From Meloidogyne chitwoodi (lineage: Eukaryota; Nematoda; Chromadorea; Rhabditida; Meloidogynidae): a DNA stretch of 64,000 nucleotides. Within the stretch, counting starts at the first letter, position 1; every line of letters begins with the position of its first letter. The notes under the pieces were generated by a model. The model ran no database searches. It was given only the letters and a program-made list of their open reading frames with translations, and had not been told where the DNA came from. Shown here one piece after another: positions 41,069-52,100 of the stretch. Where the stretch lies: positions 2,218,477 to 2,282,476 of the forward strand of contig JACZZP010000015.1 in NCBI GenBank assembly GCA_015183035.1. Direction: 5' to 3'. The position numbers were made by a program, and so were the translations under genes.

Positions 41069-41973
41069 ATTTTTAAATAATTAAAAAAAAATAATTTTGG
41101 ATAATATTGTAATTATTCGTTCTTGGGCTATAAGTATTTTTATTAAAATATTTTTAAATTTAAAATTATATCAATGAAATATTTGTGTTTAAAATATTAT
41201 ATTATTATGCAAATAATTAAATAATATTTAAAATATATGTAATTAATTTTAAACGCGAAAAAAAAGTATTTTTATTATAATAAACAAAAATGAAATTTAT
41301 TTAATTAAAAATTTTTAATTATTAAAGATAACGTTTTTAATTTTTATATAAATATGATCTAAAATTTATTTTAATTAAATTTTAAATATTTTCTAATAAT
41401 TTCAAATTAAATACATATTAAAGTGAAAATATAATAAAAATATAAATAAATATTAAATAATTATTTTTCAATAAAAAAATAATATTAATAGAGGAAGTGG
41501 CGCCATGACATCTCGTCGAAATTTCTTCTAATTTAATTACTTCTGTACAAATCGATGAAACAAAAGGTTTATTTGAGTTAGGGGAATAATTGAAATTTGT
41601 GAAAAGATTCTCCCTCATTAACATCCCTTCCAATTATTTGAGGTAAAGGAAAGGATAGGAGGAGTTTTTAGGGCTCTATATGAAAGGAAGGGTCCCATCC
41701 AATTTTTTCTATATTTCTTAAAAAATGGGTAATTTTTTTATATTTTTTCTCTCTATTTTTGATTTTTGTCTTGAGGCTATAGACGCGAAATGATTAATTT
41801 TTTATATATTTTGAAAGAAAGACGGTTATGTTGAAATTTTGATTTATACCTATATTTTTTTAAAATTTTTATGTAAAAATTGCAATTTTTCTGGAGACTC
41901 TAATGTCCAAAAAATTTAAAAGAATCTTTATTTACCAAACAAATAATCACAGACATAAAATCAATAAAAACAA
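41069..41973. other. AT-rich intergenic DNA
   Basis: Lies between the start of the zinc finger/coiled-coil gene and the stop of RINT1, both on the minus strand. A 72-codon frame (41418-41633, minus) has a somewhat protein-like start (LFTNFNYSPNSNKPFVSS) but no conserved motif and no clear splice partner; an upstream exon of the neighbouring gene is possible. Otherwise nothing was seen. Confidence 0.4.
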
Positions 41974-44900
41974 TCAACTAATTAATTTTTCAATGGCCAC
42001 TAAATCACAACGTTGTTCTAATAATTGTACAACTTTAACCTTTGTCATTCCAATAATATCAAATTGTTCCAATTTTTGATCCAATTGTTGTTCCGGAATA
42101 TTTTTAATTTCATCTTTTAGTAAAATAACTGTTGGGGGAGGTAATGAAAGCAATCTAAGTGTAGAAAGGACATTTACACATTTCTAAAGGAAAAAGGACA
42201 TTAGTCTTAACTTTAATTTTAAAATATAACCTCATTAAATACATCAAAAACACTTGCACCACGCATTTTTCCATAACACTGATTTAATAGAGGAATTAAA
42301 GAATTTGTTATATCATACAAAATTTGAGCTGCTCCGCGATAACTTTAATTGAAAAAAATTATTATAATTAATTCTTTAGAACACAAAAATAAAATTTTTA
42401 ATAGTGACAGGAGGTAAGATAGGAGCCTTAAGGATTCGAATCCTGACAATTTTTAAGGAATAAATTTGGTCAAAATTAATTTAGAAAAAATCGGGAATTA
42501 AAAACTAAAATTATATTGGGACTCTAATAACCAATATTTAAGAAAAATTCAAAATTAAAAAAACTAACTTAAAAGCATTTTGTGTAATAACACAAATATC
42601 AATACAAGACCAAATTTCATGATTTGTCAAATGTTGAAATGTCAAAACAGAATCAGGAGAAATATTTAAATTAATCCATTCAAATAATTCTTTAATTTGA
42701 CGTAAAAAAGGTTCAAATGAAGGAGTAATTTCTGAAGGTTTTGGTGAAGAAGAAAAAGAAAAACCTTCCCAATCATACCATTTTTCAAAAGAATATTTTA
42801 AATTTAATTGTTTTGAAATTAATTCACTAAATGTTTCACATAAATCTTTAACCCATAAACGCCAAACATGTCTATATAATGAAGCACTTTCATCAAAAGT
42901 TCCTCTAGCTAAACAATTTATTAATGAAACAAAAGAAGAAGTATTATTATTATTAATAGTTGTAGAAGAAGAAGTTTGTTCTAAAAAAAATAATATTTAT
43001 TTATATTTTTTAAAATTATTTATTTTCCAGGAAGAGTGTCCACAAATCTTAAAATTATTTACTCAAGTGAAAAGAAAGATCATTGCTAGCATTTAAAACG
43101 CTTAATCAAGAGTATAAGAAATATTAAAAGAGAGATTTAAACAGTTGTATCGGTAGCTCAGTTGGTAGGGCGCCCGACTATGCGCAAGCGAAAGCCTTAG
43201 CGAGCACTTGAGAGGTCGCAAGTTCGAATGAATAAGAATTTTACTTATCGCTTTTTAAATCAACAATTCGTACTTTTTTTCTAAAAAAATTATATAATGC
43301 CGAAATTTTTTTGCAAAAATTATTTTATGTTTTTAAATAAATAAACAAATTTTAAAAATTTGCGGACCCTTACTTTAACCAAAAAAATTAAAGAAAAACC
43401 TTTATTAGATTGTAACTGCTGTAAAAAGAATTGTAGACGTACAAATTCAGGAGAATCACTCCAATCATCTAACAACAAAGTTAAATACCTTAAAAAACAA
43501 AATTTAAAATATTCTATTAAAATAAAATTAAAAAAACCATAAAGCATTTAAAAGTTGTGGAAAAGGTTTAACAAAACAATTGTGTCTATTAGCCTGTCCA
43601 ATTTGTACAATTATACTTCTAAATTCATCAACAATCAAAAGTTGTAATTTAAGAAAACGACATTTAATTTTCATATCGGGAATAGATCGATAACGTTCTG
43701 ACATTGACTGCATTAATATTACAAATGAATCGGCAAAGTTGGGGACCAAATACTTAAATAAATTATATTTATTTTAATTTTTAAATTAATTATTGGCCAG
43801 AATTTGAGGTTTTATAATAATCTCAAATGTCTGTTTTTTCTCAAAATTTTATTTAAAAAATCTCCAAAAAACTTAAAAATTCCCTTAAAATTTAAAAAAA
43901 CCTCTTACAGGATCAACATCAGCCGCTTCCTTATATCTAGGTTCATAAGCATTATCATCAGCCAAAATAGCATCTACCCCCGCAGAAAGAGTATCCCTTT
44001 CCAATCTTATCCAAGACTCCAAAATTTGTTCAAAATTACAAAGAGATGAAATTACATGAATTTCAGAGTCCTCAAAATACCCAAAATTTTCAAACATTTC
44101 TCTTTCGAATAAAACACATTCGTCAATTAAATTGGAAAGATTGCGTCTATCTTGAATTAATTTGCAATTTTTTGACATTTCAAAAACTTTTTCTGAAGCC
44201 AATTTCATTAATCTTTCTAAAAATATTTGTTTGGCATTTTGTTGTTTTGGATAAATATTTGACATCTTTTTTTTTAATTTAAAAAATAAATTTAAAAAAA
44301 ATAAAAAACATCATCAACAAAAGGCTGTAAAAAATGTTCAAAATATTCCAAATTATTTTCTGCCCAACATGAAAGCTGTGAGAAAAACCATTCTGGTTTG
44401 CTAAGTAAATTAGTTTCTTTATCCCCATAAAAGTGATAATTAAATCTTTTGTCAAATTCTCCTAAAACTAGTTCCATAGGTTCTTTTTCAATTTTTAATG
44501 ATAATTTGACATTTTTGGAATTTTTTGAAATTGAAGCTGTTTCGATATTTATCTGGGTCCACCCCTGAAGATCGAAACCCTATAGATCGACACCCTATAG
44601 ATCGACACCCAATAGATCGAATTACCCTATAGATCGAAACCCTTTTGATCGCATTACCCTGTAGATCGAATCCAAAATATCAACACTAATTAATTTTCTC
44701 AATTAAACTATTTAAGTTTTTCAATTTATGTGATTCATAATTTAATTTTATTATCTTTTTTTTAATTTTTTTAGATCAAGCATTACAAATAAAGGCTTTA
44801 TTGCTTAAATCTAAAAGAAATCAGGACATATTTATTTATGAAGGCTTTATTTATGTTAAATGGAAAGATGCTTTTTTGTAATTTTTATGCTCTTTTAAAT

Positions 44901-46172
44901 TTTAGTGTTGATATTTTGGATTCGATCTACAGGGTAATTCGATCAAAAGGGTTTCGATCTATAGGGTAATTCGATCTATTGGGTGTCGATCTATAGGGTG
45001 TCGATCTACAGGGTTTCGATCTTCAGGGGTGATCCCATTTATCTAAAAATAAATTTTAAAGTAATTTTTAAAAAATTTCAAACCAAATTTAGGCACTTCA
45101 AAATCTGAGCAGTTTGAATCAATTTAGGCTTTAACGTATTAAAATCAACAGATTCTTCAAAAGGAAAGTGAATACGTGAATATACCAAAAATAAAGTTGA
45201 ATTCAATTCTAATTGTAAAAATTGGGCTAAAGAGGCTGATTTAACTGTGTAATCTCTAAGGCAGTCTTTTACTATTGCAAACTAAATTTTAAAAAATTTT
45301 TAATTTTTGGGATCAAATGTCTCATTAAAAAAAACCTCAATATTTTCACTCGGTATTTTAAGCAATTTTCTATAATTATCCAACAAAAGTGAATAATTTC
45401 CTTTACGTAAACATCGTCTAATCTCATCACGCAAATTTACAAAATATTTTTGAAAGTTTAAGTAATTTTGTTTTTGCTGTAATTGACGCAATATTTCAAT
45501 TTTTCAGATAATTCTGGAGCTTCCTAAAAAATTATTTTTTTTAATTTAATAAAAAAACCTTTTTTATTCTTTCAGTAGATTTATTAAAATTATTTAATAA
45601 ATTTAATTTTTCATTGGAAACTTTATCTTTTGTTTGATTCCATTTCTTCTTTTAATTTTTTTAAAGAAATAAAAGTTCTTTTAAATATTGCTGACGAACA
45701 ATTGAATCTACCTTTATTTTTTGGATTTAAAAATAAATTTAAATAAATATAAAACCTCAAAATCCTGTCTTTTAGCTTCCAATTCATCACATAATTTACG
45801 CACACCTTGAAAATAATTTCTAAGATCCTTTGAATTTAAAGCAGCAAGGCATTCACGAATTTTAATTGTCTAAAATTTGAATAAAAATAAAAATGTTAAA
45901 AACATAATTTAAAATGAAAATAAAAGTATTTTTTTAATAAATTAAAATTATTGTCCAGCGAACGGATTCGAACCCACAACTAATTGTACAGAAAACTAAG
46001 AACTAATCCACTACACCAAAATACAAAATTGAATTTTTTTGTAAAAAAAATTATAATTTTTTATAGAATATATTTGTAATAGTAAAATAAAATTAAATAA
46101 CCTCGTAAACTTTAAATTGTTTAACATCAGTTGATGAAGTAGAAGACAAATTGTGAACTTGTTTAGTTGGCC
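41974..46172 (-). CDS. RINT1/Tip20 vesicle-tethering subunit, 5' end cut by satellite
   Basis: Exons read: 46102 to about 46160 (start missing), 45756-45869, 45559-45648, 45336-45476, 45084-45281, 44310-44552, 43909-44265, 43538-43752, 43400-43488, 42569-42980, 42231-42342 and 41974-42183. Phases agree across all joins, giving about 726 residues plus the partial first exon (human RINT1 is about 790). The family is recognised from FDKRFNYHFYGDKETNLLSK with PEWFFSQL, from CRFLKLQLLIVDEFRSIIVQ, LNALWYLTLLLDDWSD, and YRGAAQILYDITNSLIPLL near the end. RINT1 works with ZW10 and NAG (Dsl1/NRZ complex) in Golgi-to-ER tethering. Exon 44310-44552 is joined in frame only if the splice acceptor next to the inserted element (44553-44554) is used. 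Exon 45336-45476 uses an acceptor inside a longer open stretch. No in-frame ATG precedes the first exon: an in-frame stop lies in satellite sequence immediately upstream. Confidence 0.85.
43148..43230 (+). pseudogene. tRNA-like pseudogene in RINT1 intron
   Basis: Contains an excellent A box within TAGCTCAGTTGGTAGGGCG, then GCCTTAG...GGTCGC, and a B box AAGTTCGAATG, in the order and spacing of a tRNA with a short intron (reminiscent of tRNA-Tyr). After the B box the sequence departs: neither the T-stem 3' side nor the 3' acceptor strand pairs with the 5' end. It is therefore a truncated tRNA copy or the head of a tRNA-derived SINE, on the strand opposite to RINT1. Confidence 0.55.
44547..44554. 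repeat. Target-site duplication, left copy (carries a 3' splice site)
   Basis: ATTTATCT, identical to 45037-45044. On the minus strand it reads AGATAAAT, where AG is a splice acceptor and ATAAAT the first bases of a RINT1 exon. This copy directly adjoins the rest of the exon. Confidence 0.85.
44555..45036. mobile_element. 482-bp foldback MITE with 135-bp terminal inverted repeats
   Basis: The arms 44555-44689 and about 44902-45036 are inverted copies differing at about four positions. Each arm is built from degenerate repeats of a 12-16-base word ending in GATCGA (for example CCCTATAGATCGA, CCCAATAGATCGA). Outer ends begin GGG and continue ACCCCTGAAGATCG. The 212-bp centre is AT-rich and non-coding. 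An 8-bp duplication, ATTTATCT, flanks it exactly. Eight-bp duplications are typical of hAT-like (also P or Merlin) elements; the ends do not let me choose. No transposase is encoded, so it is non-autonomous. It sits at the intron/exon border of RINT1, antisense and sense being equivalent because of the symmetry. The near-identity of the arms may mean recent insertion or arm gene conversion. Confidence 0.9.
45037..45044. repeat. Target-site duplication, right copy (original 3' splice site context)
   Basis: Second ATTTATCT. On the minus strand it follows the T-rich end of a 41-nt intron (ATTTATTTTTAG). Splicing here would put the element into the mRNA. Confidence 0.85.
45951..46022 (-). pseudogene. 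tRNA-like pseudogene in first visible RINT1 intron
   Basis: On the minus strand: A-box-like GGTGTAGTGGATTAG, then a perfect B box GGTTCGAATCC, about 35 bases apart, ending CGCTGGACA. The 5' end (ATTTTGGT) does not pair with that 3' end, and the T-stem has mismatches, so no functional clover-leaf forms. It is probably a decayed tRNA or tRNA-derived element, on the same strand as RINT1. Confidence 0.5.
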
Positions 46173-49100
46173 AAAATATTTAAATTTTGCCACCTTTTTT
46201 TAAAAAAATAAAAAAAAAATAATTTTTTTTTTTTCAAGTTAATTCTTGATTTTTTTTTTTTAAAAATAGGTTGGACAACTCATGTCCAACCTAAAAAAAA
46301 AATTATTAAAAAAAATTAAATTAAAAAAAGTTATGGCCAAAATATTTAAATTTTGCCACCTTTTTTTAAAAAAATAAAAAAAAAATAATTTTTTTTTTTT
46401 CAAGTTAATTCTTGATTTTTTTTTTTAAAAAATAGGTTGGACAACTCATGTCCAACCTAAAAAAAAAAATTATTAAAAAAAATTAAATTAAAAAAAGTTA
46501 TGGCCAAAATATTTAAATTTTGCCACCTTTTTTTAAAAAAATAAAAAAAAAATAATTTTTTTTTTTCAAGTTAATTCTTGATTTTTTTTTTTAAAAATAG
46601 GTTGGACAACTCATGTCCAACCTAAAAAAAAAATTATTAAAAAAAATTAAATTAAAAAAAGTTATGGCCAAAATATTTAAATTTTGCCACCTTTTTTTAA
46701 AAAAATAAAAAAAAAATAATTTTTTTTTTTCAAGTTAATTCTTGATTTTTTTTTTAAAAAATAGGTTGGACAACTCATGTCCAACCTAAAAAAAAAATTA
46801 TTAAAAAAAATTAAATTAAAAAAAGTTATGGCCAAAATATTTAAATTTTGCCACCTTTTTTTAAAAAAATAAAAAAAAAATAATTTTTTTTTTTCAAGTT
46901 AATTCTTGATTTTTTTTTAAAAAATAGGTTGGACAACTCATGTCCAACCTAAAAAAAAAAATTATTAAAAAAAATTAAATTAAAAAAAGTTATGGCCAAA
47001 ATATTTAAATTTTGCCACCTTTTTTTAAAAAAATAAAAAAAAAATAATTTTTTTTTTTTCAAGTTAATTCTTGATTTTTTTTTTTTAAAAATAGGTTGGA
47101 CAACTCATGTCCAACCTAAAAAAAAAATTATTAAAAAAAATTAAATTAAAAAAAGTTATGGCCAAAATATTTAAATTTTGCCACCTTTTTTTAAAAAAAT
47201 AAAAAAAAAATAATTTTTTTTTTTTCAAGTTAATTCTTGATTTTTTTTTTTTAAAAATAGGTTGGACAACTCATGTCCAACCTAAAAAAAAAATTATTAA
47301 AAAAAATTAAATTAAAAAAAGTTATGGCCAAAATATTTAAATTTTGCCACCTTTTTTTAAAAAAATAAAAAAAAAATAATTTTTTTTTTTTCAAGTTAAT
47401 TCTTGATTTTTTTTTTTTAAAAATAGGTTGGACAACTCATGTCCAACCTAAAAAAAAAATTATTAAAAAAAATTAAATTAAAAAAAGTTATGGCCAAAAT
47501 ATTTAAATTTTGCCACCTTTTTTTAAAAAAATAAAAAAAAAATAATTTTTTTTTTTTCAAGTTAATTCTTGATTTTTTTTTTTAAAAAATAGGTTGGACA
47601 ACTCATGTCCAACCTAAAAAAAAAAATTATTAAAAAAAGTTATGGCCAAAATATTTAAATTTTGCCACCTTTTTTTAAAAAAATAAAAAAAAAATAATTT
47701 TTTTTTTCAAGTTAATTCTTGATTTTTTTTTTTAAAAAATATGTTGGACAACTCATGTCCAACCTAAAAAAAAAATTATTAAAAAAAATTAAATTAAAAA
47801 AAGTTATGGCCAAAATATTTAAATTTTGCCACCTTTTTTTAAAAAAATAAAAAAAAATAATTTTTTTTTTCAAGTTAATTCTTGATTTTTTTTTTAAAAA
47901 ATAGGTCGGACAACTCATGTCCAACCTAAAAAAAAATTATTAAAAAAAATTAAATTAAAAAAAGTTATGGCCAAAATATTTAAATTTTGCCACCTTTTTT
48001 TAAAAAAATAAAAAAAAAATAATTTTTTTTTTTTCAAGTTAATTCTTGATTTTTTTTTTAAAAAATAGGTCGGACAACTCATGTCCAACCTAAAAAAAAA
48101 TTATTAAAAAAAATTAAATTAAAAAAAGTTATGGCCAAAATATTTAAATTTTGCCACCTTTTTTTAAAAAAATAAAAAAAAATAATTTTTTTTTTTTCAA
48201 GTTAATTCTTGATTTTTTTTTTTTAAAAATAGGTTGGACAACTCATGTCCAACCTAAAAAAAAAAATTATTAAAAAAAATTAAATTAAAAAAAGTTATGG
48301 CCAAAATATTTAAATTTTGCCACCTTTTTTTAAAAAAATAAAAAAAAATAATTTTTTTTTTCAAGTTAATTCTTGATTTTTTTTTTAAAAAATAGGTCGG
48401 ACAACTCATGTCCAACCTAAAAAAAAATTATTAAAAAAAATTAAATTAAAAAAAGTTATGGCCAAAATATTTAAATTTTGCCACCTTTTTTTAAAAAAAT
48501 AAAAAAAAAATAATTTTTTTTTTTTCAAGTTAATTCTTGATTTTTTTTTTTAAAAAATAGGTCGGACAACTCATGTCAACCTAAAAAAAAATTATTAAAA
48601 AAAATTAAATTAAAAAAAGTTATGGCCAAAATATTTAAATTTTGCCACCTTTTTTTAAAAAAATAAAAAAAAATAATTTTTTTTTTCAAGTTAATTCTTG
48701 ATTTTTTTTTTAAAAAATAGGTCGGACAACTCATGTCCAACCTAAAAAAAAATTATTAAAAAAAATTAAATTAAAAAAAGTTATGGCCAAAATATTTAAA
48801 TTTTGCCACCTTTTTTTAAAAAAATAAAAAAAAATAATTTTTTTTTTCAAGTTAATTCTTGATTTTTTTTTTAAAAAATAGGTCGGACAACTCATGTCAA
48901 CCTAAAAAAAAATTATTAAAAAAAATTAAATTAAAAAAAGTTATGGCCAAAATATTTAAATTTTGCCACCTTTTTTTAAAAAAATAAAAAAAAATAATTT
49001 TTTTTTTTTCAAGTTAATTCTTGATTTTTTTTTTAAAAAATAGGTTGGACAACTCATGTCCAACCTAAAAAAAAAATTATTAAAAAAAATTAAATTAAAA

Positions 49101-52100
49101 AAAGTTATGGCCAAAATATTTAAAATTTAAAATAATTTTTTTTTTCAAGTTAATTCTTGATTTTTTTTTTAAAAAATATGTTGGACAACTCATGTCCAAC
49201 CTAAAAAAAAAATTATTAAAAAAAATTAAATTAAAAAAAGTTATGGCCAAAATATTTAAAATTTAAAATAATTTTTTTTTTCAAGTTAATTCTTGATTTT
49301 TTTTTTAAAAAATAGGTCGGACAACTCATGTCCAACCTAAAAAAAAATTATTAAAAAAAATTAAATTAAAAAAAGTTATGGCCAAAATATTTAAATTTTG
49401 CCACCTTTTTTTAAAAAAATAAAAAAAAATAATTTTTTTTTTTTCAAGTTAATTCTTGATTTTTTTTTTTAAAAATAGGTTGGACAACTCATGTCCAACC
49501 TAAAAAAAAATTATTAAAAAAAATTAAATAAAAAAAGTTATGGCCAAAATATTTAAATTTTGCCACCTTTTTTTAAAAAAATAAAAAAAAAATAATTTTT
49601 TTTTTCAAGTTAATTCTTGATTTTTTTTTTTAAAAAATAGGTCGGACAACTCATGTCTAACCTAAAAAAAAATTATTAAAAATATTAAATTAAAAAAAGT
49701 TATGGCCAAAATATTTAAATTTTGCCACCTTTTTTTAAAAAAATAAAAAAAAAATAATTTTTTTTTTTTCAAGTAAATTCTTGATTTTTTTTTTAAAAAA
49801 TAGGTCGGACAACTCATGTCCAACCTAAAAAAAAAATTATTAAAAAAAATTAAATTAAAAAAAGTTATGGCCAAAATATTTAAATTTTGCCACCTTTTTT
49901 TAAAAAAATAAAAAAAAATAATTTTTTTTTTTTCAAGTTAATTCTTGATTTTTTTTTTAAAAAATAGGTCGGACAACTCATGTCCAACCTAAAAAAAAAT
50001 TATTAAAAAAATTAAATTAAAAAAAGTTATGGCCAAAATATTTAAATTTTGCCACCTTTTTTTAAAAAAATAAAAAAAAATAATTTTTTTTTTTTCAAGT
50101 TAATTCTTGATTTTTTTTTTAAAAAATAGGTTGGACAACTCATGTCCAACCTAAAAAAAAAATTATTAAAAAAAATTAAATTAAAAAAAGTTATGGCCAA
50201 AATATTTAAAATTTAAAATAATTTTTTTTTTCAAGTTAATTCTTGATTTTTTTTTTAAAAAATATGTTGGACAACTCATGTCCAACCTAAAAAAAAAATT
50301 ATTAAAAAAAATTAAATTAAAAAAAGTTATGGCCAAAATATTTAAAATTTAAAATAATTTTTTTTTTCAAGTTAATTCTTGATTTTTTTTTTTAAAAAAT
50401 AGGTCGGACAACTCATGTCTAACCTAAAAAAAAATTATTAAAAATATTAAATTAAAAAAAGTTATGGCCAAAATATTTAAATTTTGCCACCTTTTTTTAA
50501 AAAAATAAAAAAAAAATAATTTTTTTTTTTTCAAGTAAATTCTTGATTTTTTTTTTAAAAAATAGGTCGGACAACTCATGTCCAACCTAAAAAAAAAATT
50601 ATTAAAAAAAATTAAATTAAAAAAAGTTATGGCCAAAATATTTAAATTTTGCCACCTTTTTTTAAAAAAATAAAAAAAAATAATTTTTTTTTTTTCAAGT
50701 TAATTCTTGATTTTTTTTTTAAAAAATAGGTCGGACAACTCATGTCCAACCTAAAAAAAAATTATTAAAAAAAATTAAATTAAAAAAAGTTATGGCCAAA
50801 ATATTTAAATTTTGCCACCTTTTTTTAAAAAAATAAAAAAAAATAATTTTTTTTTTTTCAAGTTAATTCTTGATTTTTTTTTTAAAAAATAGGTTGGACA
50901 ACTCATGTCCAACCTAAAAAAAAAATTATTAAAAAAAATTAAATTAAAAAAAGTTATGGCCAAAATATTTAAAATTTAAAATAATTTTTTTTTTCAAGTT
51001 AATTCTTGATTTTTTTTTTAAAAAATATGTTGGACAACTCATGTCCAACCTAAAAAAAAAATTATTAAAAAAAATTAAATTAAAAAAAGTTATGGCCAAA
51101 ATATTTAAAATTTAAAATAATTTTTTTTTTCAAGTTAATTCTTGATTTTTTTTTTAAAAAATAGGTCGGACAACTCATGTCCAACCTAAAAAAAAATTAT
51201 TAAAAAAAATTAAATTAAAAAAAGTTATGGCCAAAATATTTAAATTTTGCCACCTTTTTTTAAAAAAATAAAAAAAAATAATTTTTTTTTTTTCAAGTTA
51301 ATTCTTGATTTTTTTTTTAAAAAATAGGTTGGACAACTCATGTCCAACCTAAAAAAAAAATTATTAAAAAAAATTAAATTAAAAAAAGTTATGGCCAAAA
51401 TATTTAAATTTTGCCACCTTTTTTTAAAAAAATAAAAAAAAAATAATTTTTTTTTTCAAGTTAATTCTTGATTTTTTTTTTTAAAAAATAGGTCGGACAA
51501 CTCATGTCTAACCTAAAAAAAAATTATTAAAAAAAATTAAATTAAAAAAAGTTATGGCCAAAATATTTAAATTTTGCCACCTTTTTTTAAAAAAATAAAA
51601 AAAAAATAATTTTTTTTTTCAAGTTAATTCTTGATTTTTTTTTTAAAAAATATGTTGGACAACTCATGTCCAACCTAAAAAAAAAATTATTAAAAAAAAT
51701 TAAATTAAAAAAAGTTATGGCCAAAATATTTAAATTTTGCCACCTTTTTTTAAAAAAATAAAAAAAAATAATTTTTTTTTTTTCAAGTTAATTCTTGATT
51801 TTTTTTTTAAAAAATATGTTGGACAACTCATGTCCAACCTAAAAAAAAAATTATTAAAAAAAATTAAATTAAAAAAAGTTATGGCCAAAATATTTAAATT
51901 TTGCCACCTTTTTTTAAAAAAATAAAAAAAAAATAATTTTTTTTTTTTCAAGTTAATTCTTGATTTTTTTTTTTAAAAAATAGGTCGGACAACTCATGTC
52001 CAACCTAAAAAAAAATTATTAAAAAAAATTAAATTAAAAAAAGTTATGGCCAAAATATTTAAATTTTGCCACCTTTTTTTAAAAAAATAAAAAAAAAATA

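Follow-up and report, generated by a model that had tools for sequence, protein, structure and literature searches.

A foldback transposon over an intron–exon border in a 5′-truncated RINT1 duplicate of Meloidogyne chitwoodi

Can a transposable element that copies a splice acceptor as it enters a gene be removed again by splicing, leaving the gene unharmed? This question is raised by a stretch of the Meloidogyne chitwoodi genome in which a 482-bp foldback element lies over the border between intron 5 and exon 6 in a copy of the housekeeping gene RINT1. The stretch, referred to here as the window, is the final 64 kb of contig C7 (GenBank JACZZP010000015.1, positions 2218477-2282476; 25.5% GC) in an assembly of 47,477,280 bases and 30 contigs (GCA_015183035.1). 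In the original prediction, made from the letters of the window alone, the element was described as a transposon whose target duplication copies the acceptor and renders the insertion removable. The analysis presented here points to a plainer explanation: very probably, this is an ordinary insertion of a miniature inverted-repeat transposable element (MITE) over the intron 5/exon 6 border of a dead partial RINT1 duplicate, with the acceptor copied by chance. The decisive point, absent from the original prediction, is that the host copy is a 5′-truncated, frame-broken duplicate.

The insertion site, in window coordinates, is made up of the following features.

44555..45036, no strand assigned: foldback MITE of 482 bp, with ends GGGTCCACCCC / GGGATCACCCC
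44555..44689, plus strand: left arm, composite, of ~15-bp units ACCCTATAGATCGAC
44902..45036, minus strand: right arm
44547..44554, no strand assigned: copy of the target-site duplication, ATTTATCT, reading AGATAAAT on the minus strand, with the AG at 44554-44553
45037..45044, no strand assigned: copy of the target-site duplication, providing the native acceptor as its minus-strand AG (45044-45043)
45043..45083, minus strand: 41-nt intron 5 in its pre-insertion form, with the same borders in the gene model on contig C3
44310..44552, minus strand: 243-nt exon 6 of the RINT1 copy, ending before the donor GT in a T where C3 has G
45084..45281, minus strand: RINT1 exon 5 in the window copy, with all 198 nt the same as in C3

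As originally described, and exact to the base in both coordinates and letters, the element stands between two copies of the 8-bp word ATTTATCT, each of which holds on the minus strand an acceptor AG followed by six exon bases. The 41-nt intron (45083-45043 on the minus strand, reading GTTTGAAA...TTTATTTTTAG) and the in-frame 243-nt exon 6, which is open in phase 0, were likewise confirmed. The arms, measured as 44554-44689 and 44902-45037 so that each span takes in one target base at its outer end, are 136 nt each, 97% complementary and separated by 212 nt, and the RNA of the locus is predicted to fold into a long and very stable stem (z -29.3, with 0/100 shuffles as low). Terminal inverted repeats, a target-site duplication, multiple dispersed copies and small size together place the element among DNA transposons of the MITE kind. 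Its two 7-bp ends are different, GGGTCCA and GGGATCA, and in the window element they are swapped with respect to the other copies when these are aligned by their interiors, an arrangement that recombination between the arms, with inversion of the interior, could produce.

An empty site for comparison is present in the same genome. Exon 5 matches two genomic places, both at 100%, namely the window and C3:140063-140260, and the locus on C3 runs continuously across the corresponding site with a single ATTTATCT and no element, so that the 8-bp word is a true target duplication. The empty-site check suggested originally for a relative was in this way carried out on a second gene copy, and it bears out the claim that a transposon duplicated a splice acceptor here. 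Most simply, the element would have entered after the two gene copies had separated, and its high identity to other members of its family (see below) suggests that the insertion is fairly recent.

The condition of the host gene emerges from comparison with the C3 copy, for which a model of 12 exons was built by hand, with exon borders taken from open frames and GT-AG dinucleotides. This copy has a start codon and encodes 798 aa with no internal stop, and its product matches RINT1_TIP1 (E 3.3e-62). When the whole protein was compared with the genome, the 19 matches all fell on C3 or C7, giving only two loci, as did a comparison with one exon. The window locus has these broader features.

41811..46168, minus strand: partial RINT1 duplicate, a 5′-truncated pseudogene, with the intact copy at C3:141195-137457
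46168..49128, no strand assigned: 164-bp tandem array of 18.1 copies, occupying the place of the 5′ part of exon 1
45505..45671, minus strand: stretch with frame lesions at three points (near 45671, 45637 and 45505), as judged against the intact copy

Similarity to the C3 gene stops within exon 1 at 46168, the start codon is missing, and the frame carried from exon 1 runs into a stop in exon 3. Truncation, frame lesions and an intact parent elsewhere thus all mark the window copy as a pseudogene. Ungapped codon differences between the copies number 33, of which 22 alter the amino acid and 11 are silent, set against ~1929 and ~468 sites for the two kinds of change, respectively (approximate figures from an earlier exon model); a pair made up of one copy under constraint and one released from it should look roughly like this. 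It was also considered whether the two copies might be haplotypes of a single locus, which is unlikely: when the 64-kb window was compared with 70 kb of C3 (95001-165000), homology in matches >300 nt was confined to window positions 41811-44554 and 45037-46168, a single segment of 4.36 kb apart from the element.

What splicing would make of the duplicated acceptor was predicted with a weight matrix trained on the C3 gene, whose 11 acceptors, all from one hand-built model, are a small base; the matrix was applied to the minus-strand AGs in 44500-45100. At 8.1, the native upstream AG (45043) came out highest of 26 AGs, and the copied downstream AG (44553; AGGGGTGGACCCAG) lowest at -21.0; the 11 used for training, each left out in turn, ranged from 0.8 to 8.8. 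When the ranking was repeated under eight settings, with the native acceptor in or out of training and four pseudocounts for each, the downstream AG came last in 8/8 (scores -28.9 to -6.7). By this model, the copied acceptor looks too weak to splice the element out, and the native AG would mostly serve in any transcript of the window copy, because the T-rich tract is kept there and the GC-rich end of the element precedes the downstream AG. Splicing to the native AG would add 27 codons and then reach TAG inside the element; the original prediction of a stop within the element was right, and its figure of about 28 codons was close. The duplicated acceptor is real, and the usefully removable insertion is not borne out: the downstream AG ranks last, and the window copy has no start, three lesions and an early stop. 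With the start lacking and the frame broken, exact removal of the element would still leave RINT1 unrestored, and, since the C3 gene carries no insert, no rescue is needed.

The sequence of events that best accommodates these results would begin with the cut-and-paste entry of a non-autonomous foldback DNA transposon at an 8-bp staggered target. This target would have spanned the intron 5/exon 6 border of the partial RINT1 duplicate, which was dead already or died later, and with the native upstream AG still in use, any transcript would carry the element as exon sequence as far as the stop after 27 codons. The insertion would have persisted owing to the host copy not being needed.

Judged from the junction alone, it is conceivable instead that the copied acceptor is used and the element leaves together with intron 5, in which case the insertion would be neutral for the gene. 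The AG and its six exon bases are duplicated exactly, the phase would be kept, and the very stable hairpin formed by the arms would draw the two AGs together. Such an outcome is nevertheless decidedly unlikely, given that the native AG and its tract are intact and come first in order, that the downstream AG has the lowest score of the 26, and that the window copy is unable to make RINT1 either way. In a more specific form, if the window copy is transcribed, the 136-bp stem would hide the element and appose the AGs, and some transcripts would splice to 44553 despite its very poor acceptor. This is a long shot; were it true, the locus would offer a ready-made experiment on how a hairpin steers the choice between two copied acceptors, the empty C3 site serving as control. 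It is also conceivable that the window copy still functions as a second RINT1 gene from an alternative start, its lesions being assembly errors. In keeping with this, exon 5 is identical in the two copies, and the exons differ at fewer positions (37/2352 bases) than the introns (118/1301), figures that are approximate and come from the earlier exon model. Set against it are exon 1, which runs into the tandem array without a start codon, one lesion that is not a simple length change, and the preponderance of amino-acid-changing codons (22/33), and it is accordingly very improbable that the gene works.

Several observations nonetheless weigh against a dead duplicate with an unused acceptor copy. 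The low exon divergence just described, together with three 3′-side introns that differ by 13-17% while exons 10-12 differ by ~2.5%, exceeds the conservation that should be expected of a copy dead since duplication; the contrast may be due to tract-wise gene conversion or to fast-changing tRNA-like repeats in two of these three introns. Of the three frame lesions, two alter the length by a single base and might reflect assembly errors, an explanation less easily extended to the truncation and the third lesion. The native acceptor was itself part of the training set, and when it was left out it ranked second in 4/4 settings, behind an AG at 44804 inside the element, which becomes a second candidate acceptor. 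Pairing of the arms into the 136-bp stem could place the downstream AG near the branch point, and hairpins are able to change acceptor choice. Finally, the splicing outcome is a prediction, and the lesions may have arisen before or after the insertion. The locus illustrates that an insertion site may be read correctly and still lead astray if the condition of the host gene is left unchecked: the frame is kept at the junction, in a gene copy that is dead elsewhere. Moreover, the filled site on C7 and the empty site on C3, both in one genome, provide a clean control for testing whether a duplicated acceptor beside a strong hairpin comes into use.

The tRNA-like stretches in the RINT1 introns were noted by eye, at window positions 43140-43340 and 42400-42480. 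The former matches 14 places, including both gene copies, between which it is ~20% different while the neighbouring exons are nearly identical. No tRNA or other RNA genes were recovered, either by ARAGORN in the window or by Rfam at E 0.1 in 41800-46300.

Whether an acceptor hit is remarkable at all depends on how many insertions the family has made. The end motif, with ≤1 mismatch, occurs 118 times in the genome, 59 times on each strand, as compared to 0 for a control pattern, and these 118 motifs correspond to at least 59 insertions. Taking ~11,000 genes in the genome (a figure from the available portion of PMC9871597), 11 introns per gene as in RINT1, and 7 positions at which an 8-bp target contains a given AG, ~1.8% of random insertions would be expected to copy an acceptor, or about one in the family; this is a rough estimate in which the intron number of RINT1 stands for all genes. 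The copying of the acceptor here is thus consistent with chance.

A parallel with introner elements had been drawn in the original prediction, and it is conceivable that the family spreads by making or extending introns, favouring genes and carrying splice signals in its duplications. Among published introner families, target-site duplications occur in 49/130 and terminal inverted repeats in 72/177, according to the portion of PMC9860276 that was available, and the present element resembles the introners derived from DNA transposons in that a splice-site dinucleotide is supplied by the target duplication. The difference is that an existing acceptor has been copied here, at a pre-existing intron and in a pseudogene. 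The duplications themselves show no sign of a splice-site bias. At the 15 insertion sites that were read, both element ends were found at 14, with an exact 8-bp duplication at 11, one of 9 bp (on C12), and two that are imperfect (on C29 and at C3:724691); the remaining site, C25:1817143, has one element end only. In the 12 sites left for counting after C29, C3:724691 and C25:1817143 were set aside, the window's own site included, there was no excess of splice dinucleotides in the duplications, AG being present in 5/12 and GT in 4/12 on either strand, compared with 45% and 44% of window 8-mers. The flanks at 12 sites other than the window's own yielded a list of 67 open reading frames, of which 20, picked by eye from 9 of these sites, were scanned with Pfam. 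None of the 20 passed the Pfam cut-off, a weak test that involved no gene models, and three gave sub-threshold matches, the nearest being Vac14_Fab1_bd at 21.4 vs 22.1 bits. When it is added that seven of the eleven near-full copies sit together in a single local cluster and share their flanking bases, an introner-like mode of spread appears extremely unlikely. The proposed parallel proves weak, with AG and GT at background, and although the test is itself a weak one, nothing at these sites points to an introner-like habit.

The family to which the window element belongs has eleven near-full members of the 482-bp type, between 482 and 533 bp long, and the same ends are found on four longer copies of ~775-813 bp and on more distant relatives. 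The seven clustered copies lie within ~11 kb at C23:742826-753938 (loci L018 and L019), each with the same 14 flanking bases on either side and the same 8-bp duplication, and probably represent the local multiplication of a larger unit. The window element is 97.5-98.5% identical to the other ten copies and has private bases at 7/480 aligned positions when compared with four representatives. Among the papers listed on Meloidogyne MITEs or on insertions that copy or supply splice sites, a coverage that leaves out most subscription journals, no description of the element was recognised, and this foldback family, apparently undescribed according to the original prediction, may be unnamed.

In its build, the element is most readily compared with Tm1, a Mutator/Foldback family of root-knot nematodes. 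As described in the available portion of PMC3169594, Tm1 has composite arms of ~14-bp units, asymmetric 7-bp ends, and duplications of 8-10 bp without consensus, and its MITE-like members are typically <0.5 kb. The likeness extends to composite inverted arms of ~14-15-bp tandem units, asymmetric 7-bp ends, size and duplication length, and, it would seem, to the nematode genus. Differences are apparent too. The ends of Tm1 are given there as CGGTTAA (CGGATAA in M. hapla) and CCTACCC, and its repeat unit as CGATTCAGTATCCGC; compared by eye, neither the end motifs nor the unit letters match those found here, and the duplications, most commonly 9 bp in Tm1, are mostly 8 bp here. The element thus appears to be Tm1-like in build without being a Tm1 member.

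Transposons that are spliced from pre-mRNA offer another comparison. To go by their titles, Rushforth and Anderson in 1996 reportedly found this for Tc1 in C. elegans, and Giroux et al. in 1994 are said to have found it for Ds in maize. In these cases, as at the present locus, a transposon lies within or next to an exon and is surrounded by possible splice sites; the difference is that splicing is reported there, by those titles, whereas here acceptor use is judged from sequence.

As for a source of transposase, matches in the genome numbered 16 for Merlin (PF12762), 76 for hAT (PF05699) and 26 for MULE (PF10551), and 27 of these loci (5 Merlin, 10 hAT and 12 MULE) were searched for the ends of the element at distances of up to 1.5 kb, tolerating one mismatch. 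A facing pair of ends was found at 0/27 scanned loci. None of the 10 hAT loci scanned, from 76 matches, had an end-like match within this distance. Single end-like matches were seen at 5/27 loci. Four are MULE loci (L053, L054, L056 and L057, or 4/12), each with one unpaired, end-like GGGTTAACCCCT or GGGATTAACCCT at one mismatch; the fifth is L035, one of the 5/16 Merlin matches scanned, where the end-like match lies outside the Merlin element. Four near-identical Merlin-type elements end in GGWAAAACTTGTTCATAG (seen in three), unlike the element in the window. These four, at C3:1620650, C8:904351, C25:357310 and C28:976984 (L032-L035), are 2.2 kb long with ~170-bp inverted ends and are 99.7-99.9% alike, and they have possibly been active recently.

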